From Solirubrobacteraceae bacterium (GTDB lineage: Bacteria > Actinomycetota > Thermoleophilia > Solirubrobacterales > Solirubrobacteraceae), in assembly GCA_017882445.1 (NCBI GenBank), contig JADGPK010000001.1:105130-169129 (forward strand): a stretch of 64,000 bases of DNA. The letters run 5' to 3'. A program made the position numbers and the translations under genes. Every line of letters starts with the position of its first letter. The first letter of the stretch is position 1. Under the pieces are notes generated by a model. The model was not told the origin of the DNA, did no database searches, and saw only the letters and a program-made list of their open reading frames with translations. Positions 1,224 to 64,000 of the stretch are shown one piece after another.

Positions 1224-1991
1224 GTGGACGGAAAGGCCAAGGTCATCGCATTCGCCAACCAGAAGGGCGGCGTGGCGAAGACGACAACCACGCTCAACCT
1301 CGCCGCTGCTTTTGCGGAGGAGGGCCACCGCGTGCTCTGCGTGGACATGGACCCGCAGGGCAACCTGACGATGTCCCAGGGAATCGACCCGGACACGCTC
1401 GAGAAATCGATGTACGACGTTCTCGTGCACAAGGTGTCGATCCGCGAAGTGATCCGCAAGCGCGAGATCGACATCGCATGCGCTTCGATCGATCTCGCCG
1501 GCGCTGAGATCGCGATGTCGACGATGATCGGCCGCGAGCGCTCGCTGCAGAAGGCTTTGGAACCGATTCTCGACGACTACGACTTCATCTGCATCGACAC
1601 GCCGCCGAGCCTGGGCCTGCTGACGATCAACGCGCTGACGGCCGCCGACAAGGTGATCGTCCCCGTGCAGTGCGAGTATCTGTCCATGCGTGGGCTCATC
1701 CAGCTGCAGAACACGCTCGCGATGATCCGCGAGAACCTCAATCCGGGCGTCGACATCGAGGGTATCCTTCCGACGTTGGTGGATTCGCGCACGATCCACG
1801 CCAAGGAGGCGATCGAGATCCTCGAGGAAAACTTCGGCGACCGCGTGTTCGCCTCGCGCATCCGCAAGACGGTCCGTTTCGCAGAGGCGCCGGTGAAGGG
1901 GATGTCGGTCCTCAAGTACGAGCCCGACGGAGTCGCGGCGCAGTCCTATCGGCAACTCGCGCAGGAGGTTCTCACCAATGGCCAACGCTAA
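1224..1991 (+). CDS. ParA/Soj-like ATPase
   Basis: ParA/MinD-superfamily ATPase of 255 aa. The N-terminus reads IAFANQKGGVAKTTTTLNLA, a deviant Walker A with the signature first lysine, and CIDTPPSLGLLT is the Walker B stretch. The length fits chromosomal ParA (Soj). No parB follows. Instead the next gene is ftsZ, whose ATG lies inside the last codons of this gene (14-nt overlap), so the two are probably translationally coupled. The GTG start was chosen because it begins right before the conserved KVIAFANQKGG block. The job could be positioning of the divisome, as for MinD-like proteins, or chromosome segregation; coupling to ftsZ favours the former, as inference. Confidence 0.9.
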   Translation: MDGKAKVIAFANQKGGVAKTTTTLNLAAAFAEEGHRVLCVDMDPQGNLTMSQGIDPDTLEKSMYDVLVHKVSIREVIRKREIDIACASIDLAGAEIAMSTMIGRERSLQKALEPILDDYDFICIDTPPSLGLLTINALTAADKVIVPVQCEYLSMRGLIQLQNTLAMIRENLNPGVDIEGILPTLVDSRTIHAKEAIEILEENFGDRVFASRIRKTVRFAEAPVKGMSVLKYEPDGVAAQSYRQLAQEVLTNGQR

Positions 1992-3429
1992 GCGCGCGAG
2001 CATGCGCGAAGGGCCTCTCGCCGCCCTCTTCCGCAAGACCGAAGGGGTCGAGGACCAGGGAGCCGACGCGCAATCCACGCAAGAGGGCGGGCCGTCGCCT
2101 GCCAGCGAGGCGCCCCAGGCGCCTCCGGCCGTCCATCCGCGTGAGAGCGGGCTACCCCATCCGGCCCTGGGCCCATCGTCGCAGTCTCCCCAGGAGGAGG
2201 GGCGCGTGCCATCCCCGCAGGAGCGTCTGCGTCATGCATTCTCCTCGGAGATACCCGAGAACGTCCTCGAACGGATGCCAACGCGTCCTGCGCTCGACGA
2301 CTATACGCGTGGGCGTCGGGTTCACGCGAGTGCGCCTGAAACGGTCGGAAAGCCGATCATCCGCGTGGTGGGCGTCGGTGGAGCCGGCGTCAACGCGGTC
2401 AACCGCATGGTCGAGGCCGAGGTCGAGGGCATCGAGTTCCTGGCCGTCAACACAGACCTGCAGTCGCTGCAGCAGTCCACGGCCGACATCACGCTGCACA
2501 TCGGCGCGGAGCTGACCAGGGGCCTGGGCTCCGGCTCGGACGCCAACATCGGCCGGCGCGCGGCGATGGAGGATTACGACCGCATGAAGGCGCTGTTGAA
2601 GGGCTCGGACATGGTCTTCATCGCCGCCGGTGCGGGCGGCGGCACCGGGACCGGCGCCGCGCCGATAGTCGCCCGCATCTCTCGTGAGATCGGCGCATTG
2701 ACCGTGGCGATCGTAACCAAGCCCTTCGGCTTTGAGGGCTCGCGCCGGCGCGAGCAGGCCGAGGACGGCGTGGGCGCCCTGGCCGCCGAGGTCGACACGC
2801 TGATCGTGGTTCCCAACGACCGCCTGCTCGGCGTGCTGGACAAGCAGACAGCGATGGTCGAGGCCTTCCGCGTGGCCGATGACGTCCTGCGCCAGGGCGT
2901 GCAGGGGATCTCGGACCTCGTGACTCTCCCCGGCCTGATCAACCTCGATTTCGCCGACGTACGGACGATCATGAGCGACGCCGGCAGCGCGCTGCTCGGC
3001 ATCGGCATGGGCGTCGGCGAGAACCGGGCGACCGAGGCAGCCATACAGGCCGTCTCATCGCCTCTGCTAGAAACGTCGATGGAGGGCGCGCGATCGATCC
3101 TCCTGTCGATCACCGGCGGGACCAACCTGTCGCTATGGGAGGTCAACGAGGCTGCCAAGTCCGTCTCGGAGGCCGCCCACCCGGATGCCAACATCATCTT
3201 CGGGGCGATGGTCGACCAGACGCTCGACGACCAGGTGTGGGTCACGGTCGTGGCCACCGGCTACGGCGACGAGGGCAGGCGCAAGAGTGTCAGCCGTCTC
3301 AGAGAGCCAGCAGCGGCCGGCGAGGTGCGGGTCCAGCGTGCCGGGACGCCGCGCCCGGCCCGAGAGTCGCGTCGCGGCGGCCTTGCGGTGGATGAACTCG
3401 ACGTGCCCGAGTTCATTCCCAACCTGTGA
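1978..3429 (+). CDS. ftsZ: cell division GTPase FtsZ with N-terminal extension
   Basis: Tubulin-like GTPase that forms the Z ring. The GTPase core starts only at about residue 123 (IIRVVGVGGAGVNAVNRM). The tubulin signature GGGTGTGAAP, the PNDRLL stretch and the T7 loop NLDFADVRTIM are all intact, so it should be active. The C-terminal peptide LDVPEFIPNL resembles the actinobacterial FtsZ tail that binds SepF or other partners. What is odd is an N-terminal extension of about 120 aa, rich in Pro, Ser and Glu, that opens with a short hydrophobic motif (GPLAALFRKT). An internal ATG at 2002 is an alternative start but would not remove the extension. The gene overlaps the parA-like gene and is not next to murein genes. 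Confidence 0.93.
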   Translation: MANAKRASMREGPLAALFRKTEGVEDQGADAQSTQEGGPSPASEAPQAPPAVHPRESGLPHPALGPSSQSPQEEGRVPSPQERLRHAFSSEIPENVLERMPTRPALDDYTRGRRVHASAPETVGKPIIRVVGVGGAGVNAVNRMVEAEVEGIEFLAVNTDLQSLQQSTADITLHIGAELTRGLGSGSDANIGRRAAMEDYDRMKALLKGSDMVFIAAGAGGGTGTGAAPIVARISREIGALTVAIVTKPFGFEGSRRREQAEDGVGALAAEVDTLIVVPNDRLLGVLDKQTAMVEAFRVADDVLRQGVQGISDLVTLPGLINLDFADVRTIMSDAGSALLGIGMGVGENRATEAAIQAVSSPLLETSMEGARSILLSITGGTNLSLWEVNEAAKSVSEAAHPDANIIFGAMVDQTLDDQVWVTVVATGYGDEGRRKSVSRLREPAAAGEVRVQRAGTPRPARESRRGGLAVDELDVPEFIPNL

Positions 3430-3626
3430 GGGTGCGCCGGCCGGCGCGGCGCGGCTCACACGCGTCGGTATAGGCCGATCAGCCGATCGGGGATCCGGCG
3501 GCCGATCCTGGTGGGAGGCAGCTCGACGACGGCCTCCTCGCCCGGCCCGGCTGCAAACGCTTGCAACGTCCACCGCCACGGCTCTGCACTCCGCACGGGT
3601 GGGGTCGTCTGTGGTATCGCTCAGCA

Positions 3627-5099
3627 ATGGGAGATGCCGAGAAGGGAGTGGTAGCGGCCGGGCATCCGCTGACCGCCCAGGCCGGCGCGAGGGTGCTCAG
3701 GGAAGGAGGCAACGCCGTCGACGCCGCCGTTGCGGCGATGCTCATGTCGTTCGTCACCGAGCCGCTGCTGACCGGGCTCGGGGCCGGTGGGTACATGCTC
3801 GTGGCGGGCGGCGGGATGAGGCCCACGCTGCTCGACTTCTTCGTGCAGGCGCCCAGTCGCAGCAACGACGGCACGGAGGCGGAGCTGCATGCGATCGACG
3901 TGTCCTTCGGAGACGCCGCCCAGAAGTTTCACATCGGCCCGGCCTCCTGTGGGGTGTACGGCACGCCCGCGGGCGTGTGCGAGGCGGTCGGCAGATGGGG
4001 CACGGTGCCCCTCGAGCACCTGGCCGCGCCGGCCGCCAGGCTCGCACGGGATGGGGTCGTGCTCAACGCCGGCCAGGCGTACGTCGCAAAGATCCTCGCC
4101 GACCTGTTGACCTCCACGCCCGAGTGCGCGGCCCTGTGGGCGCCCGACGGTCACATCCTGGTGGAGGGCGAGATGCTCCGCAACCCCGAGCTCGGCGACG
4201 CGCTGACGCGTCTGGCGCGGGATGGCGCAGAGCCGTTCTACCGGGGCGACATAGCGAGGGAGGTCCGCGACTGGTTGCTGGCCCGAGGCGGATCGCTGAG
4301 CGGCGAGGACCTCGAGGGCTATCGCGCGGTCGAGCGCGAGCCGGTCAAGATGGCCTATCGCGGTCGCGAGATCCTCACCAACCCGCCGCCCTCGGCAGGT
4401 GGAACGCTTCTCGCCTATGCGCTTGCGCTGCTGGATCGTGGTCCCGCGCCGCCGACCCTGCGGGGCGTGGTCGCGGCGATGACCGCGGCGCAGTCCGAGC
4501 GCACGCCGGAGTTCGTCGAAGGCCTCGACCAGCCTGGCTTCCTGGAGCGATTCCTGGCGACCCGCCTGGGCTCGACAACGCACATCTCCGTGATCGACGC
4601 TGAGGGCCGTGGGTGCAGCGTGACCACCACCAACGGTGAGGGCTCCGGGGTGGTGGTGCCGGGCACGGGGATGCACATCAACAACGTGATGGGCGAGGAG
4701 GATCTCAACCCGCTGGGCTTCCACCTCCACCCTGCGGGACGGCGCATGCCCAGCATGATGGCCCCTTCGATGGTGATGCGCGAGGGCGAGGTCGAGCTGG
4801 TGCTGGGGAGCGCCGGCTCCAACCGCATCCGCTCGGCGCTGCTGCAGATGATCGTCGCGGTGGTCGACCGCGACATGCCGGCGCGGGAGGCCGTCGACTC
4901 CCCGCGTGTGCACGTCGAGGACGGCGTCATCTTCGCCGAGCCGGGGATCGACATTGAGGGGCTGGACCCGGAGCTGCGCGTGGTGCGCTTCGGGGCGCTG
5001 AACCTGTTCTTCGGCGGGGTCCAGGCCGCGCTTCGGCGCGGGGAGATCCTGAGCGGCGCGGGAGACCCGCGTCGAGGCGGCGTCGCGGTGACACTCTGA
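3627..5099 (+). CDS. gamma-glutamyltransferase family protein
   Basis: Ntn-hydrolase of the gamma-glutamyltranspeptidase family (490 aa from this start), which cleaves or transfers gamma-glutamyl groups such as those of glutathione analogues. Family blocks are present: GGNAVDAAVAA near the N-terminus, GLGAGGYMLV, and the autoprocessing site TTHISVID, where the second Thr would become the N-terminal nucleophile of the small subunit. No signal peptide is visible, unlike secreted GGTs, so it may act in the cytosol or be a specialised amidohydrolase of the same fold. The ATG at 3627 was preferred over the upstream GTG/ATG ORF start because the conserved region begins right after it and a TATCGC box lies 6 nt before it. 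Confidence 0.85.
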   Translation: MGDAEKGVVAAGHPLTAQAGARVLREGGNAVDAAVAAMLMSFVTEPLLTGLGAGGYMLVAGGGMRPTLLDFFVQAPSRSNDGTEAELHAIDVSFGDAAQKFHIGPASCGVYGTPAGVCEAVGRWGTVPLEHLAAPAARLARDGVVLNAGQAYVAKILADLLTSTPECAALWAPDGHILVEGEMLRNPELGDALTRLARDGAEPFYRGDIAREVRDWLLARGGSLSGEDLEGYRAVEREPVKMAYRGREILTNPPPSAGGTLLAYALALLDRGPAPPTLRGVVAAMTAAQSERTPEFVEGLDQPGFLERFLATRLGSTTHISVIDAEGRGCSVTTTNGEGSGVVVPGTGMHINNVMGEEDLNPLGFHLHPAGRRMPSMMAPSMVMREGEVELVLGSAGSNRIRSALLQMIVAVVDRDMPAREAVDSPRVHVEDGVIFAEPGIDIEGLDPELRVVRFGALNLFFGGVQAALRRGEILSGAGDPRRGGVAVTL

Positions 5100-5525: not shown

Positions 5526-6440
5526 CTACTCGCCCGCCCTGGGCTTGTGTGCGGCGAGCAGCAGGTTGTAGAAGATCGCAGCCGGCAGTCGCGACTCCAG
5601 CAGCCTGCGGTCGAGCTCCTGGAGCATCAGGTAGCCACGGTAGGCGTACAGGCGCCACGCCCACGGCACCTCCTCGGGGTCCGCGGTCGCCTCCAGCGTG
5701 CGGTTCGTCCAGCCGAACCAGTTGGCCAGCAGCTCCTCGCCGCTGACGCGCACGTCCTGGAAGCCCGCGCCGCGGGCGATCCGGGCGAGTTCGCCCGGGG
5801 CGAAGGCGTGGACGTCCACAACACGCTCGAGCGCTGCGTCAGACTCCTCGCCGTCGGCGGTGGGCGCGCGTCCCGCGCCCAGGGCGCGGCGCCAGAGCGG
5901 GGCGATCGTGGTCGCGAAGCGCTTTGGGACGCTGGCCAGGCGATCGCCGTATCGCGACGGCTCGCCCGCGAACACCAGCGTGCCGCCCGGTGCGAGCACG
6001 CGCCTGAACTCGGCGAATGCGCGGGGGAGATCGGGGATGTGGTGCAGGACGGCGTGGCCCAGCACGAGATCGAAGCTGGCGTCCGCAAAGGGCAGGCGCT
6101 CGGCGTCGGCCGGCTCGGTGCGCACTCCGAGCCCGAGGCGCCGTGCGTTGCTCTGAAGAGTTTCGAGCATGCCCGCAGAGATGTCGCTGCAGGTGGCCTC
6201 CCCGATCAGTCCGGCGCGCAGAAGGTTCAGCGTGAAGTAGCCCGTCCCCGAGCCGATCTCCAGCGAGCGCGCGTAGTGGCCGGGCTCGCGCCCGAGCGCC
6301 TTGCTCAGCTTGGCCGTGACCTGGCTCATGCCGAGCTCGCCGAAGTCGATGCCCCACTTGGAGTCGTAGTGCTCAGCCGCCACGTCGTGGTAGCGCGTGT
6401 TGGCCACTCGGATCTCCTCGGCGCTCAGGGCGGGCGGCAC
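5526..6440 (-). CDS. class I SAM-dependent methyltransferase (MGLP-locus type)
   Basis: Class I SAM methyltransferase of 304 aa. Motif I is LEIGSGTGYFTLNL, the post-I acidic region is TCSDISAGM, and LVLGHAVLHHIPD is motif IV. The C-terminal third (WRLYAYRGYLMLQELDRR) is outside the methyltransferase core and reminds me of the Rv3037c-type enzyme in the mycobacterial MGLP locus; that match is from memory. It is divergent from a second methyltransferase and a GH57 enzyme, so methylation of a glucan is the best guess. The substrate is unproven. Confidence 0.85.
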   Translation of the reverse strand: MPPALSAEEIRVANTRYHDVAAEHYDSKWGIDFGELGMSQVTAKLSKALGREPGHYARSLEIGSGTGYFTLNLLRAGLIGEATCSDISAGMLETLQSNARRLGLGVRTEPADAERLPFADASFDLVLGHAVLHHIPDLPRAFAEFRRVLAPGGTLVFAGEPSRYGDRLASVPKRFATTIAPLWRRALGAGRAPTADGEESDAALERVVDVHAFAPGELARIARGAGFQDVRVSGEELLANWFGWTNRTLEATADPEEVPWAWRLYAYRGYLMLQELDRRLLESRLPAAIFYNLLLAAHKPRAGE

Positions 6441-6452
6441 GGGGTGGCACCA

Positions 6453-6458
6453 TATACT
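6453..6458 (+). promoter_or_regulatory. -10 hexamer TATACT
   Basis: A strong -10 sequence in the gap between two divergent methyltransferase genes. It sits 8 nt before GTG 6467, which opens a 17-codon reading frame, so the transcript may begin at or near that codon. No clear -35 is visible. Confidence 0.5.
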
Positions 6459-6466
6459 CGCGCGCC

Positions 6467-6520
6467 GTGCCCGCGCCTTCCAACCCCCGCCTGATCCTGT
6501 CGCGCGAGCGTATCTATTGA
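6467..6520 (+). CDS. possible 17-codon leader peptide
   Basis: A short frame from GTG reading MPAPSNPRLILSRERIY, then TGA at 6518. The stop overlaps the TTG start of the downstream methyltransferase (TTGA). It follows the TATACT box with leaderless spacing. It could be a leader peptide that delivers ribosomes to the methyltransferase start. It could also be chance, or the sign of a frameshift joining it to the downstream gene. Too short for homology evidence. Confidence 0.35.
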   Translation: MPAPSNPRLILSRERIY

Positions 6521-7326
6521 CACCAACCCTGTACCTGCAGCGAGATCAGCCCGAGGGCGTACCCCCGCTGGCGCTCACCGGCGAGCGCACGCTCCCGGAC
6601 GTGCCCGCGGAGAACTATTGGTTTCGCCGCCACCTCGTCGTCTACGAGTGGATCGCCGCGCGGACGGCCGGCATGCGCGTCCTCGACATGGCCTGCGGCG
6701 AGGGCTACGGGACCGATGTGCTCGCGCGCACAGCTCAGAGCGCGGTCGGCGTGGACGCCAACCCGGAGGCCCATGAGCATGCCCGCCTGCGCTACTCGCG
6801 GGCGAACCTCCGCTTCGTGCGCGACATGGTCGGCAGCTTCGCCGAGGAGGCCGACGCGGTGGTGTTCCTCCAGACGATCGAGCACATCGAGGAGCCCGGC
6901 GCGGTGCTCGACCATTTCCGCTCGCTCGTCGCGCGCACGGGCACACAGCCCCGAGGCCCGGGTTCCGCAGTGCCCGGGACGGTCTTCGTCTCCACCCCCA
7001 ACGTGCTCACGCTCGCGCCGAAGGGTGCTTCACGGTCTGGCAACCCGTGGCACGTGCACGAGTACCGCGCCGAGGAGTTCGCGGCGCTTTGCCGCGAGCA
7101 CTTCGCGAGCGTGGAGATCCACGGGCTGTTCCACGCACGCAAACTCCGCGCGCACGAGCTTGCCCTGCGGGCGGGCTGGGATCGCGTGCACCGGCGCCTC
7201 GGCCTGACCAGCCGCTTCTACGACTGGTTCACACCGGCTATCGCCTCCTCCGACTTCACGTTCCGCGCCGCCCACGAGGCGGATCTGGATCTCGCGCTGG
7301 ACTTCGTCGCGGTGTGCCGGTCGTGA
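6517..7326 (+). CDS. SAM methyltransferase, Rv3030-like (MGLP locus type)
   Basis: Class I SAM methyltransferase, 269 aa from TTG. The distinctive N-terminal block LTGERTLPD...ENYWFRRHLVVYEW followed by VLDMACGEGYGTDVLA (motif I) is what I remember of Rv3030, a methyltransferase of mycobacterial MGLP synthesis. The ORF-track start at 6397 lies inside the opposite-strand gene. The TTG start overlaps the stop of a 17-codon frame. The stop overlaps the GTG of the GH57 gene (GTGA), so the two are co-translated. A short Gly/Pro-rich insert (near GTQPRGPGSAVPG) lies before the conserved VSTPNVLTLAPKG. Likely role: O-methylation of a glucan or its precursor. Confidence 0.8.
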   Translation: MTPTLYLQRDQPEGVPPLALTGERTLPDVPAENYWFRRHLVVYEWIAARTAGMRVLDMACGEGYGTDVLARTAQSAVGVDANPEAHEHARLRYSRANLRFVRDMVGSFAEEADAVVFLQTIEHIEEPGAVLDHFRSLVARTGTQPRGPGSAVPGTVFVSTPNVLTLAPKGASRSGNPWHVHEYRAEEFAALCREHFASVEIHGLFHARKLRAHELALRAGWDRVHRRLGLTSRFYDWFTPAIASSDFTFRAAHEADLDLALDFVAVCRS

Positions 7327-8831
7327 GCGCGACCGATCGAAGATCGGCCAGCGACCGCGGCGCGCTGGCGATCGTCCTGCACACACACATGCCCTACGTG
7401 GAGGGCTTCGGGACGTGGCCCTTCGGGGAGGAGTGGCTGTGGGAGGCGATGGCCGGCTGTTACCTGCCGCTGCTCGACCTGCTCGATGACGGCGCACCGC
7501 TCACGCTGTCGCTGACCCCGGTGCTCTGCGATCAGCTGGAAGCCGCCGCGATCGAGGAGCGCTTCACGACATTCGTGCAGGAGATCCGCCGCGTGACCCA
7601 CGAGCAGGACGCGGCCGGGCTGCGAGCCGGCGGGTACGAGACGCTGGCGCGCGAGATCGAGCGCTCATCGTGCGACTACACCGGTGCGCTCGAGAGCCTG
7701 CGGCGGCGGGGCGGCGACCTGCTCTCGTCGCTCGGCCGCCACGCCCAATGGACGTCATCGGCCACCCACGCGATCCTTCCCCTCCTGGCCACCGACGCGG
7801 GTGTGCGTATCCAGGTGCAGATCGGCGTGGACGCTCATCGCCGCCGCTTCGGCGCCGGCTGGCGCGGCGGCTTCTGGTTGCCCGAGTGCGCCTACGCGCC
7901 GTGGCTCGTGCGGGCGCTGAGCGACGCGGGTGTGAGCAGCGTGTGCGTGGAGCTGACCAACCGCTTCGGCCTGGGCGCCAACGAGCATCTGCGCCCGATC
8001 GCCGATGGCTCCGGCGTCCTCTTGGTCCCGATAGATCGCGCCACGATCTCGCTGTTGTGGAGCGACAGCGGCTATCCGGCGAGCGGCGCCTACCGCGACT
8101 ATCACCACCACACCGTCCATCACCACACGCCGTGGAACAACGACGGGCGGGCCTACGACCACGCCGAGGCGCTCGTCCTGGCGCGCGAGCATGCGGCCGA
8201 CTTCGTCTCAAGGACGCTCACTCGTCTGGATGACGCAAACGCCGCGGCGCCTTCTGGGGAGGGCTTGCCGGGGGGTGGGCTCCTCGTCTGCGCGTTCGAC
8301 ACCGAGCTGTTCGGGCACTGGTGGTACGAGGGCCTCGCCTGGCTTCGCGCCGTGGTGGCGGAGTGCTCGGCGCAAGGGCTCGAGCTGCTGCGATTGGACG
8401 ACGCGCTGCAGCGCACGGAGCCCGTTTGCGTAGCCGACATGGACGCCGAGCAGCCCCACGGCACCCCCGATCGGTTGGCGCCGCTCGAGGGCTGGGCGGC
8501 GAGCAGCTGGGGCAAGGACGGCGATCTGTCGACCTGGTCGGGGCCCGCGGTCGCCGAGATGGCCTTCGCCGTGCGCGCCGCAGAGCTCGAGGTGGTGAGG
8601 GCGGGCGCGCACGCGAGCGCCGCTGCGGTGCGGGAGCTGCTCGCGCTGCAGGCCAGCGACTGGCCGTTCATGGTCTCACGCGGCGTTGCCGCCCCCTACG
8701 CGCGTGAGCGCTTCGAGGGTCACCGCCAGGCGCTCGTCGGGGCGCTCGCCGACGGCAGGTCGGCCGGGGTGGGGGGGCTGCGCAACATCGCGCCGCACGC
8801 CGAGCCCGCGTCGCTCCTCGTTCCCCTGTAG
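7323..8831 (+). CDS. GH57 alpha-1,4-glucan branching enzyme
   Basis: Glycoside hydrolase family 57 with the DUF1957-type C-terminal helical domain, 502 aa. Conserved regions in order: HTHMPYVEG (region 1), GFWLPECAY with the catalytic nucleophile Glu (region 3), FDTELFGHWWYEG with the acid/base Asp (region 4), and ASSWG (region 5). This matches branching enzymes that cut and re-join alpha-1,4 glucans in the cytosol; Rv3031 of the mycobacterial MGLP locus is of this type. GTG 7323 overlaps the stop of the preceding methyltransferase. The His-rich DYHHHTVHHHTPWN loop is also typical of the subfamily. An alpha-1,4-glucosyltransferase partner is not present in the window. Confidence 0.9.
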   Translation: MSATDRRSASDRGALAIVLHTHMPYVEGFGTWPFGEEWLWEAMAGCYLPLLDLLDDGAPLTLSLTPVLCDQLEAAAIEERFTTFVQEIRRVTHEQDAAGLRAGGYETLAREIERSSCDYTGALESLRRRGGDLLSSLGRHAQWTSSATHAILPLLATDAGVRIQVQIGVDAHRRRFGAGWRGGFWLPECAYAPWLVRALSDAGVSSVCVELTNRFGLGANEHLRPIADGSGVLLVPIDRATISLLWSDSGYPASGAYRDYHHHTVHHHTPWNNDGRAYDHAEALVLAREHAADFVSRTLTRLDDANAAAPSGEGLPGGGLLVCAFDTELFGHWWYEGLAWLRAVVAECSAQGLELLRLDDALQRTEPVCVADMDAEQPHGTPDRLAPLEGWAASSWGKDGDLSTWSGPAVAEMAFAVRAAELEVVRAGAHASAAAVRELLALQASDWPFMVSRGVAAPYARERFEGHRQALVGALADGRSAGVGGLRNIAPHAEPASLLVPL

Positions 8832-8926
8832 GGCCCGTGATAGAGAGCCGCCCACACCAGGCCTATCGAGAGGAGCCGTTGATGTCAGCTTGCGAGCGAG
8901 GGCCGTCCGCGGCCTGAGCAGTGGCT

Positions 8927-9616
8927 CTACTCCCAGCGCATCGAGCGGGGCGTGCTGCGCATGCGCAGCACGCGAGCGGGAGCGCCGGCGACGACGGCGT
9001 TCGCCGGGACCTCGCGGGTGACGACCGAGCTGGTTCCCACGACGCTGTTCTCGCCGATGCTAACCCCGCGCAGGACGCACGCCCCATAGCCCATCCAGAC
9101 GTTGTGTCCCACGCGCACATCGCGCATGTAGATCCCCTGTGAGCGGATCGGGCGCTCGACCTCTGTGACGCCATGGTCGAAGTCGATCAGCATCACCCTG
9201 TCGGCGATGATGCACTCGCGCCCGATCGAGACGTGCTGGTAGGCCGAGATGGTGCACTCCTGGCCGATCACGGTCTTGGCGCCGATGCTCACTTCTCCCT
9301 CGTGCACGCGTATCTTGCTCGCGTGTCCGATCCACGCCCAACGGCCGATTCGCAGCGTCGCGTCACGGCCGATCTCAAACTTGACGCGCGGGCAGATGAA
9401 GCAGATGCCGTCGGTCTGCAGACGCCTCCCGAAGCGGAGCTTCAGCCACACGAACCTCGCCAGCAGGCTCGCGTATCCCGGCCTGAGCATGTGATTGGCC
9501 CGCATGAAACGCGCTAGCGCGAGCGGTCCGCCGCGCAGCGGAGCGGGCGCCCCCCGCGGCTGCCCGGCGATCTCCTCGCTCGGAGTCTCGGCGGTAGGTT
9601 CGACAACGAGCGCCAT
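8927..9616 (-). CDS. left-handed beta-helix acyltransferase (MGLP-locus type)
   Basis: Hexapeptide-repeat (LbH) acyltransferase of 229 aa. Repeats such as IGRWAWIGHASKIRV, VSIGAKTVIGQECTI and VRVGHNVWMGYGACVLRGVSIG build the coil, and the end NAVVAGAPARVLRM is the usual cap. IDFDHG holds the likely catalytic His. The sequence resembles the Rv3034c-type acetyltransferase of the MGLP locus. I chose ATG 9616; the ORF-track start at 9688 would overlap meaB. It converges on the GH57 gene, with 95 bp between that hold only a small GGCCG/CGGCC hairpin and an 11-codon frame with a good RBS. Predicted role: acylation of a glucan or glycolipid. Confidence 0.82.
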   Translation of the reverse strand: MALVVEPTAETPSEEIAGQPRGAPAPLRGGPLALARFMRANHMLRPGYASLLARFVWLKLRFGRRLQTDGICFICPRVKFEIGRDATLRIGRWAWIGHASKIRVHEGEVSIGAKTVIGQECTISAYQHVSIGRECIIADRVMLIDFDHGVTEVERPIRSQGIYMRDVRVGHNVWMGYGACVLRGVSIGENSVVGTSSVVTREVPANAVVAGAPARVLRMRSTPRSMRWE

Positions 9617-9672
9617 CGCCTGGAATCGTAAGGGACCGCCCCCCGGGGCGGCCCTGCGATGATGCGCGCTCG

Positions 9673-10659
9673 ATGACCGAGCCGTCACTCGCCCAGCGCC
9701 TGCTCAACGGCGACCGCCGCGCGCTCGCGCGCGCGATCACGCTCGTCGAGGACAACCGGCCGGAGGGCTGGGACCTCGTCCGCGAGGTCTACCCGCACAC
9801 CGGTCGCGCGGAGGTGGTGGGCTTCACAGGACCGCCGGGGGTGGGAAAGTCGACGCTGATCGGCGCGCTCACCAAGGCACGCCGGCAAGCCGGGCGAACG
9901 GTGGGGGTGCTGTCGATCGACCCGTCCTCTCCGTTCACCCACGGCGCGCTGCTGGGAGACCGCATCCGCCTGTCAGAGCACTTCCTGGACCAGGGGGTGT
10001 TCATCCGCTCGATGGCCAACCGCGGCGCCCTCGGCGGCCTGTCGGAGGCGGCGTTGCAGGCTGCCCTGCTGCTCGACGCGGCTGGGCGCCAGGACGTGTT
10101 CGTGGAGACCGTGGGGGTCGGTCAGGCGGAGATCGACATCATCGATCACGCCGACACGATCGTGCTCGTGCTGATGCCCGGGTCGGGCGACTCGATCCAG
10201 GCGCTCAAGGCCGGCGTGATGGAGATCCCCGACGTGATCGTGGTCAACAAGGCCGACCATCCGCTCACCGACACGATGATCCGCGAGATCCGTGGGGTGC
10301 TCTCGCTCGCCAATGTGGACCGCACGGCCGAGGAGGTGCGCGGCAGCTGGCGGGTGCCGATCATCAAGACCGAGGCGACCCTGGGCCACGGGATCGATGA
10401 GCTCGTGGACAGCCTGCGCGAGCACCGCGCGCACATCCTCGCCGCCGGTCAGCTCCAGGAGCGGCGCAGGCGCAACCTGCACAACGAGGTCCTGGCGATC
10501 GCCACGGCGCGCATGCGCCGGCGCCTGGAGCAGGATCTCCAGAAGGATGACGAGTTCAAGCGCCTGCTTGCCGAGGTCGTCGAGCGGCGGCTGGATCCGG
10601 CGAGCGCCGCCTCGACCCTGCTCGAGCGCGCGGCGCTGCGCGGGCAGCCCGTCGGGTAG
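9673..10659 (+). CDS. meaB: MeaB/ArgK G-protein chaperone of methylmalonyl-CoA mutase
   Basis: SIMIBI GTPase (328 aa) that protects and reloads adenosylcobalamin-dependent methylmalonyl-CoA mutase. P-loop GPPGVGKSTLIGAL, SIDPSSPF and FVETVGVGQAEID (switch and Walker B) are diagnostic. VVNKAD is the G4 base-specificity motif. Length is typical. A stand-alone B12-binding domain lies 6 kb downstream; the catalytic mutase subunit is not in the window. The gene is divergent from the acyltransferase with a gap of 56 bp. Confidence 0.92.
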   Translation: MTEPSLAQRLLNGDRRALARAITLVEDNRPEGWDLVREVYPHTGRAEVVGFTGPPGVGKSTLIGALTKARRQAGRTVGVLSIDPSSPFTHGALLGDRIRLSEHFLDQGVFIRSMANRGALGGLSEAALQAALLLDAAGRQDVFVETVGVGQAEIDIIDHADTIVLVLMPGSGDSIQALKAGVMEIPDVIVVNKADHPLTDTMIREIRGVLSLANVDRTAEEVRGSWRVPIIKTEATLGHGIDELVDSLREHRAHILAAGQLQERRRRNLHNEVLAIATARMRRRLEQDLQKDDEFKRLLAEVVERRLDPASAASTLLERAALRGQPVG

Positions 10660-17438: not shown

Positions 17439-18230
17439 ATGAAGATATGCGTCCTGGTGAAGGAGGTTCCGGACGCCGCCGTCGAGAAGAGGATCGATTC
17501 CTCGACGGGGCGCATGGACCGCAGTGGGGAGAAGAACCTCAACCCGTATGACACGCACGCCATCGAGGCGGCGATGCAGATCAGGGAGGGCGGCGTGGTG
17601 CCGGTCGAGGAGATCGTCGCGGTGACGATGGGCCCCGACAGTGCGGTGCGCGCGCTGCACAAGGCGGTCTCGCTCGGCGCCGACCGCTCGGTGCACCTCT
17701 CAGACCAGGTGGTCGCCGGCTCGGACGTGGCCGCCACCGGCTACGCGCTCGCGAAGACTCTTCAGCGCGAGAGCCCGGACCTTGTGCTGCTGGGCCAGCA
17801 GTCCGACGACGGGGAGTGCTACACGATCGGCGCGGTCGTGGCCGAGTACCTGGGCATGCCGTCGCTGACGCAGGTGATCAAGATGGACATCGACTCCGAC
17901 AGCCTGCGCTGCGAGCGTCAGGCCGAGTACGGCTACGACACCGTCCAGATCAAGATGCCGGCGGTGATCTCGGTCGGCGACGCGATCAACGAGCCGCGCT
18001 ACCCGTCGCTGAAGGCGATCATGGGCGCCAAGAAGAAGCCGCTCGACACCGTCACAGCGGCCGACGTGAGCATCGACGCCTCGAAGGTCGGCGGCGAGAA
18101 CTCGGGGGCACAGTGGGTCGCTGCCAAGGCTCCGCCGGCGAAGGCCGCGGGGGAGATCATCGAGGACGAGGACACCGGCGAGACGGTCGAAAAGATCGTC
18201 GCCTGGCTCGACGAGCGCAAGCTCATCTAA
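17439..18230 (+). CDS. etfB: electron transfer flavoprotein beta subunit
   Basis: EtfB/FixA (263 aa), which binds AMP and with EtfA forms the soluble ETF that collects electrons from acyl-CoA dehydrogenases. The N-terminus KICVLVKEVPDAA and the LGQQSDDGECYTIG and MPAVISVGDAINEPRYPSLKAIMGAKKKPL stretches are typical. etfA follows after 17 nt with a strong RBS. In M. tuberculosis fixA/fixB lie beside the MGLP genes; here the two groups are 8 kb apart. The start is ATG 17439; GTG 17431 is in another frame. Confidence 0.95.
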   Translation: MKICVLVKEVPDAAVEKRIDSSTGRMDRSGEKNLNPYDTHAIEAAMQIREGGVVPVEEIVAVTMGPDSAVRALHKAVSLGADRSVHLSDQVVAGSDVAATGYALAKTLQRESPDLVLLGQQSDDGECYTIGAVVAEYLGMPSLTQVIKMDIDSDSLRCERQAEYGYDTVQIKMPAVISVGDAINEPRYPSLKAIMGAKKKPLDTVTAADVSIDASKVGGENSGAQWVAAKAPPAKAAGEIIEDEDTGETVEKIVAWLDERKLI

Positions 18231-18247
18231 GGAGGAGCTGAACTGAA

Positions 18248-19228
18248 ATGGCGAACATCCTGGTTTACGCGCTGCACTACGACGGCGCGATCAACAAGAA
18301 CTCACTCGGCGCCGTCTCAGAGGGCGCCAAGCTGGCCGCTGAGCTCGGCGGCGAGGCGCACGCGATCCTTCTCGGCGAGAACGTTCCCGAGGACCTGGCG
18401 GCGTCGCTCGGCAAATATGGGGCCAAGAAGGTGCTCGTGGCCGAGGGCCCCGAGGGCCTGGCGCAGCCGCTGGTCGACGCGATGGCCAGGGCGATCGCCG
18501 ACGGTGGCTATTCCTATGCGCTGTTCGGCGGCGGTCTGCTCGGCTTTGAGATCGGCGCCGGTCTGGCCGCGCGGCTCGGCGCCGGAGTGGCGATGGAGGT
18601 CACGGCCGTGCGAGCGGAGGGCGGCGAGCTGATCGCCGAGCGCCCGATCCTGGGCGATTCGGCGATCTCCGAGATCAAATACCGCTCCAACGTCGGGATC
18701 ATCATCAGCCGCCTCAACGCGTTCGAGATCAAGGAGACCGGCGGCGGCGACGCTCCGGTCGAGCGGCTCGACTTCGAGCTGAGCCAGCACGCCCTGCAGG
18801 CGACGATGGTCACGCGCGGTGAGCAGCGCGGGGCCGACGTGGACATCGAGGGTGCGAGTATCCTGATCGCCGGCGGCCGCGGCCTGGGCAAGGCCGAGGG
18901 CTTCCAGCTGTGTGAGGAACTGGCCGGCGCGTTCGGTGGCAACAGCGCCGTGGCAGCCACCCGTGCGGTGGTCGACGCGGGCTGGTACCCCTACGCCGCG
19001 CAGATCGGGCAGACGGGCAAGACCGTCGCACCGAAGCTGTACCTCGCCGCGGGCATCTCGGGCGCGATCCAGCACAAGGTCGGGATGCAGGGCTCGGAGA
19101 ACATCGTCGCGATCAACAAGGACGCCAACGCGCCGATCTTCGAATTCTCCGACCTCGGCGTCGTGGGAGACCTCAACAAGATCCTGCCCAAGCTGACAGA
19201 GGCTGTGAAGGCCAAGAAGGCCAGCTGA
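18248..19228 (+). CDS. etfA: electron transfer flavoprotein alpha subunit
   Basis: EtfA/FixB (326 aa). The C-terminal FAD domain is complete: [15 protein letters not shown], then [32 protein letters not shown] and the NKDANAPIF contact, all diagnostic. It is paired with EtfB and feeds the ETF-quinone oxidoreductase encoded 58 nt downstream. AAGGAGGAG lies before the ATG. Confidence 0.96.
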
Positions 19229-63629: not shown

Positions 63630-63990
63630 GGGGACGACAGGCTTCGACGTGGTCGGCTCGTGGGGATGGTGGCGAGTCGAGGTCCCGGGCGGCCTCGTAA
63701 AACACCCGGGAAAAACATAAGTGCGGACTCTCACGAGTACGCCCTCGCTGCTTAGTCAATAGCTAAGCCGTGAGGTCTCGGGCCCCGCTTGCCTGCGGCG
63801 GGGAAGGCCGGGATCAGAAAGCAGGCTCACCCGGCGCGGTCCGCCTTCGCCAAGTCGGGGAAACTCAGGAGGCTGGTCCCCCACAACCCCGCCGGCGAGG
63901 CGAGTGGGGGACGAGATCAGAGCGCCGGCTACGCTCGTAGAAGCCATTCACACGCGATCACGGACGTGGGTTCGATTCCCACCGTCTCCA
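63630..63990 (+). ncRNA. ssrA: transfer-messenger RNA (tmRNA)
   Basis: The 5' end GGGGACG (63630-63636) pairs with CGTCTCC (63983-63989) to form the tRNA-like acceptor stem. Its third pair is G-U, the alanine identity mark. The T arm reads GTGGGTTCGATTCCCAC. The tag frame starts at GCG 63723 and reads ADSHEYALAA, then TAG at 63753; the ALAA end is the usual protease degron. The 3' CCA is not encoded (A then CTG), so it must be added by the CCA enzyme. It frees stalled ribosomes together with SmpB, encoded 1.3 kb upstream. One-piece, not permuted. Confidence 0.97.
63723..63755 (+). other. tmRNA tag reading frame (ADSHEYALAA)
   Basis: Ten codons from the resume codon GCG to TAG. The tag resembles the mycobacterial form ADSHQRDYALAA, with the centre shortened by two residues. 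Confidence 0.93.
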
Positions 63991-64000
63991 CTGGTTCAAC

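Follow-up and report, generated by a model that had tools for sequence, protein, structure and literature searches.

The closest described counterpart of the genes considered here is the methylglucose lipopolysaccharide (MGLP) locus of Mycobacterium tuberculosis. Rv3032 and Rv3030 have been tied to MGLP (PMC2674218, PMC4555173) and, among Rv3030, Rv3031, Rv3032 and Rv3034c, they are the only two with genetic support (PMC4555173, PMC4981310). We analysed a 64,000-nucleotide window of the genome of a soil actinobacterium of the Solirubrobacteraceae (G000:C1:105130-169129; G000 is a 3.27 Mb draft) in which genes for two S-adenosylmethionine (SAM)-dependent methyltransferases (MT1 and MT2), a GH57 alpha-glucan branching-type enzyme and a left-handed beta-helix (hexapeptide) acyltransferase (LbH) lie together. 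Our preferred reading, to which we assign a probability of roughly 0.7, is that this set is the Solirubrobacterales version of the MGLP locus, passed down from an old actinobacterial ancestor, and that it serves a variant of the MGLP pathway whose product would be an alpha-glucan carrying methyl and acyl groups. What the analysis shows is orthology, gene order, the presence in the genome of an Rv3032-type glucosyltransferase (GT4) and of a GT81 enzyme, and the absence of OctT.

Pfam and NCBIfam place MT1, MT2 and LbH in generic families only, which is insufficient alone for identity, and searches of the PDB with these three proteins returned distant, generic relatives (for LbH, the closest solved structures are maltose/galactoside O-acetyltransferases). 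Orthology was judged against a family of seven genomes (f32) that appear to be mycobacteria-type, because one of them, G134, has the gene order rsfS-GpgP-OctT, a GpgP that strongly matches 4pz9 and a GpgS that strongly matches solved GpgS proteins. The f32 locus reads etfA- etfB- MT2+ GH57+ GT4+ LbH- MT1-, in agreement with the gene types described for Rv3030-Rv3037c (PMC2674218). MT1, MT2, GH57, LbH and GT4 all gave best matches in both directions, the reverse searches being run against the window and fetched paralogues from its own genome rather than the whole genome. In each f32 genome MT1 matched the gene of the MGLP locus best (E 1e-59 to 3e-69, the second match being at about 1e-12), and the f32 protein searched back found the window MT1 first (E about 1e-60). 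MT2 and GH57 likewise paired with the f32 locus genes, LbH found the locus gene at E 1e-27 to 1e-34 and was found in return, and GT4 found the locus GT4 at 1e-55 to 1e-65 (with the second match at 1e-25 to 1e-32), the f32 GT4 also returning to it. The Rv3037c, Rv3030, Rv3031 and Rv3034c gene types named in the preliminary description are thus borne out, the reciprocal best hits falling on MGLP-locus genes and not on unrelated families. Protein identity between the window set and the M. tuberculosis locus is 30-42%.

In the MT2, GH57 and GT4 trees, the Solirubrobacterales form one clade apart from the mycobacterial clade. Recent transfer from mycobacteria is unsupported given this clean separation. 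Own-genome paralogues formed long branches of unreliable place in the LbH and MT1 trees, and for this reason the orthology of these two proteins is based on best hits and synteny. The motif LTGERTLPD...ENYWFRRH, which the preliminary description had named, is indeed present in MT2; its LTGERTLPD...ENYW portion is invariant in 12 relatives and ENYWFRRH is common to the mycobacteria-type orthologues too (LTGERTVPGLTEENYWFRRH). A DFDH...PI..QGI motif is common to the window LbH and the f32 protein. GFWLPE and FDTELFGHWWYEG of the window GH57 align with the solved Thermus branching enzyme, and the catalytic regions and BE_C domain are common to the GH57 glycogen branching enzymes of Thermus, Thermococcus and Thermotoga. 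Compared with the Thermus enzyme, the window GH57 has about 34 residues fewer between these blocks; we dropped this short loop as a special trait, as most GH57 enzymes are without the flexible loop (PMC10346327).

The four open reading frames and their expected domains are present as first described (Table 1), although the proposed extent of 5526-9616 was right only at its start, the acyltransferase frame reaching 9688. TTG at 6517 is the likely start of MT2, since homologues begin there. GH57 starts with a GTG that lies in a 4-nt overlap (GTGA) with the MT2 stop, which suggests translational coupling.

Table 1. Coordinates of the MGLP-type genes and of associated features (window positions unless a locus is given)
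Feature	Position	Strand	Remarks
MT1	5526..6440	-	SAM-dependent methyltransferase, Rv3037c type; Methyltransf_11
MT2	6517..7326	+	SAM-dependent methyltransferase, Rv3030 type; reading frame open from 6397
GH57	7323..8831	+	alpha-glucan branching-type enzyme, Rv3031 type; Glyco_hydro_57 + BE_C
LbH	8927..9688	-	left-handed beta-helix (hexapeptide) acyltransferase, Rv3034c type; Hexapep
MeaB-type GTPase gene	9673..10659	+	name from sequence reading; beside LbH in most relatives
etfB and etfA	17439..19228	+	7.75 kb from LbH gene, far side from MT2
Acyl-CoA ligase	L102:6773-8413 (G000:C52)		name from sequence reading; next to relocated GT4; likewise L103-L107, L110, L111, L116, L117

The gene set is nearly universal in Solirubrobacterales (Thermoleophilia) and occurs in other actinobacterial classes as well. 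GH57 was present in 55/61 genomes (39/41 near-complete ones), and MT2 in 91/397 genomes of the phylum. The best 80 named matches to the MT2 alignment were mostly labelled Solirubrobacterales, Solirubrobacteraceae or Thermoleophilaceae and included the cultured genera Conexibacter, Paraconexibacter, Svornostia, Patulibacter and Solirubrobacter (Conexibacter arvalis L160, Svornostia abyssi L175, Solirubrobacter deserti L212 and Patulibacter minatonensis L204 are cultured members with the set); three of the 80 were oddly titled (Chlamydiae, Dormiibacterota, Bifidobacterium), and further named matches were labelled only Actinobacteria, Actinomycetota or bacterium. MT2 and GH57 adjoin in 39 of 40 fetched loci, with MT1 divergent beside the pair in 37 and LbH present in 32 (several others are cut by contig ends). 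The commonest pattern, MT1- MT2+ GH57+ GT4+ LbH- MeaB+, accounts for 30 of 80 named loci. The same five genes are grouped in other families and classes (L269, L272, L273, L281), and MT2-GH57-GT4 followed by LbH on the other strand is an arrangement common to f32, the families of other classes and Solirubrobacterales.

The window thus has orthologues of Rv3030, Rv3031, Rv3034c and Rv3037c, with the MT2-GH57 order and strand of the M. tuberculosis locus and with LbH and MT1 on the opposite strand; the Rv3032 orthologue is elsewhere in the genome. It differs in having MT1 on the other side of MT2, a MeaB-type neighbour, GT4 outside the locus in the window's genus, and no adjacent fixAB. The mycobacterial cluster for 3-O-methylmannose polysaccharide (MMP), MeT1-MmpH-pMeT3-ManT, likewise combines two methyltransferases with a glycosyltransferase and makes a polymethylated polysaccharide, but this four-gene cluster is described without GH57 or LbH (PMC9883506).

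No Rv3032-type GT4 was found within the window, as the preliminary description had stated. The gene has not been lost in the window's genus; it has been relocated, the single orthologue in the genome lying at G000:C52:5562-6737 (70% identical, E 7.5e-171). GT4 stands directly behind GH57 in 21 of the 40 relatives' loci, of which one is truncated at a contig end, and 55/61 genomes have a GT4 match as strong as expected for an orthologue. In other genera of the order it occupies one end of a TreZ-GlgX-TreY(-GlgB) cluster or a place close to it (L108, L109, L113, L114, L115), from which we conclude that GT4 has changed places between an MGLP-type and a trehalose/glycogen locus. A gene read from its sequence as an acyl-CoA ligase directly follows the relocated GT4 in 10/10 sampled genomes of the window's genus; its product may feed glucan acylation.

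In M. tuberculosis, MGLP initiation genes are Rv1208 (GpgS), Rv2419c (GpgP) and Rv2418c (OctT). Here, the genome carries a GT81 of the same model (G000:C84:8390-9196; 332 bits against an NF010496 cut-off of 262) with an adjoining phosphatase gene that is HAD-type and not a histidine phosphatase. The genome thus holds both the glucosyltransferase and a primer-type enzyme, which the preliminary description had proposed to look for, and neither of the outcomes that it gave as refuting (best hits in unrelated families, or a lack of these genes) was obtained. The GpgP histidine phosphatase is not beside rsfS, unlike in f32, although no genome-wide search for it was made. The gene behind rsfS (L301:7168-8397, G000:C216) has the look of a secreted SGNH-type hydrolase and does not match OctT. 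A second GT81 copy (G000:C200:5346-6388, L139) is a 55-aa fragment 90% identical to the C84 copy and is followed by a HAD phosphatase gene that is also nearly identical; it is a truncated duplicate or an assembly artefact. Outside the order, GT81 was found in 28/34 MT2-bearing genomes.

In the pathway that we propose, GT4 would use a nucleotide sugar to build a short alpha-1,4-glucan and GH57 would add an alpha-1,6 link, either as the initial link or as a branch. MT2, and probably MT1 too, would O-methylate glucose units, at the 6-O position in the case of MT2 by analogy with Rv3030, and LbH would move short acyl groups from acyl-CoA. GT81 and the HAD phosphatase may provide a glycosylglycerate primer, though not in all relatives, and the polymer would be cytoplasmic. 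All the catalytic steps in this scheme are inferred, and so are the positions of linkages and methyl groups and any part that the polymer plays in fatty acyl-CoA binding; what we suggest about the site of methylation, the acyl groups, the primer and the role in the cell leans on analogy with Rv3030, Rv3031, Rv3032 and Rv3034c.

Several observations weigh against assigning the set to an MGLP-type pathway. OctT gave no match in the window's genome and nothing better than E 0.0028, over a short stretch, in 11 other Solirubrobacterales (not found in 12/12 tested), whereas each of the seven f32 genomes has a clear match and octanoate is invariably present on mycobacterial MGLP (PMC4555173). The best solved match of GT81 is the Rubrobacter xylanophilus mannosyl-3-phosphoglycerate synthase (MpgS, 5e-75), ahead of mycobacterial GpgS (3e-57). 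Furthermore, GT81 above cut-off is missing in 12/39 near-complete GH57-bearing relatives, and G024 has GT81 without GH57; the primer gene is therefore not tightly coupled to the set. GT4 lies beside TreY-GlgX-TreZ genes in G026, G031, G034 and G052 and near them in G035, and its occurrence in a TreY-GlgX-TreZ-GlgB cluster in several family members means that it may serve other glucans. Lastly, mycobacterial evidence on the substrates of MT1- and MT2-type enzymes is limited to the genetics of Rv3030. Because OctT was tested and not found, and because the donor sugar of GT81 is uncertain, we would file the set as an MGLP-type variant and not as MGLP proper; judged by sequence, the support covers the gene set and not its product.

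The placement of GT4 with or near trehalose/glycogen genes in these five genomes could also mean that GT4 and GH57 are simply the glycogen synthase and branching enzyme of this lineage, the methyltransferases and LbH acting elsewhere or being passive neighbours. GH57, present as a single copy, is the only branching candidate in the window's genome, the GH13 branching enzyme model having no match at E <= 0.001 there or in six others of the genus, and GT4 matches the glgA_Coryne model, with a score below the model cut-off. We nevertheless consider this explanation unlikely: MT2 and GH57 overlap, the grouping of the four genes is kept throughout the order and also in other classes, relatives with a GH13 GlgB of their own still keep the GH57 set, and Rv3032, the mycobacterial counterpart of GT4, has little or no role in bulk alpha-glucan (PMC4981310).

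The affinity of GT81 with the Rubrobacter enzyme and the failure to find OctT would also fit a methylated and acylated product that is not an alpha-1,4-glucan, such as a mannosylglycerate-primed glycan or a glycolipid head group. In line with this, the GT81 of the window's genome carries PLAGE at the position of PLSGE in M. tuberculosis GpgS, a motif linked to mannose exclusion (PMC2581804). PLSGE, however, occurs in 2/13 sampled members of the order, so that the motif varies without loss of the locus, and both Rv3032-type GT4 and GH57 enzymes of this kind work on alpha-glucans; we accordingly rate such a product as improbable, slightly more so than plain glycogen. That the four genes are chance neighbours without a common pathway is hardly credible and already largely refuted. 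MT1 and LbH do belong to broad superfamilies and MT1 is divergently transcribed, but the adjacency of MT2, GH57 and MT1 in nearly all fetched loci, the conservation of the set over the order and several classes, and the grouping of the orthologues in f32, there differently arranged, all speak against chance.

Turning to the neighbouring genes, the preliminary description correctly placed etfBA some 8 kb from the set, but its comparison with the mycobacterial fixA/fixB arrangement does not hold. In f32 and several other families the etf genes adjoin MT2 and are transcribed divergently from it, whereas the fetched flanks of all 39 long named Solirubrobacterales loci were free of them; within the order they were seen near the set only in the window's genus, and the window etfBA is probably not part of it. 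The MeaB-type gene is a conserved right-hand neighbour in the order, and we do not claim it as part of the pathway. To the left, at 1224-5099, genes read from their sequence as ParA-like, an FtsZ-domain protein whose N-terminal extension is long, and gamma-glutamyltransferase-like form a block that stays left of MT1-MT2 across much of the order. A transfer-messenger RNA (tmRNA) gene (63630-63991; tag ADSHEYALAA) lies at the right end of the window.

The set had been presented as an MGLP-like one outside the mycobacteria; this is new at the level of order and class only, as MGLP was already known from Nocardia (PMC4555173). A literature search, with most subscription papers beyond reach, found no paper linking MGLP to Thermoleophilia. 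A more far-reaching possibility, which we hold tentatively and at somewhat less than even odds, is that the MGLP pathway is an ancestral actinobacterial trait, nearly universal in Solirubrobacterales, operating there with no octanoylation and, in part, with no GT81 primer, and that in the window's genus it is possibly the chief route to alpha-glucan, with a dedicated acyl-CoA ligase encoded next to GT4.

The role of MGLP in the cell is unsettled, as mycobacterial knock-outs did not alter fatty acid synthesis in the way that had been expected (PMC2674218). Relatives outside the mycobacteria that have the set but not OctT offer a natural comparison, one that separates a conserved core (GT4, GH57, the two methyltransferases and the acyltransferase) from the possibly mycobacterial OctT and perhaps GpgS. 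Our results suggest that the polymer, or a variant of it made with one known step missing, has an earlier origin and a wider distribution than has been assumed. The gene set is common to a whole order far from the mycobacteria, so the polymer may not be a mycobacterial speciality, and these relatives weaken the idea that it is tied to mycobacterial lipid metabolism.
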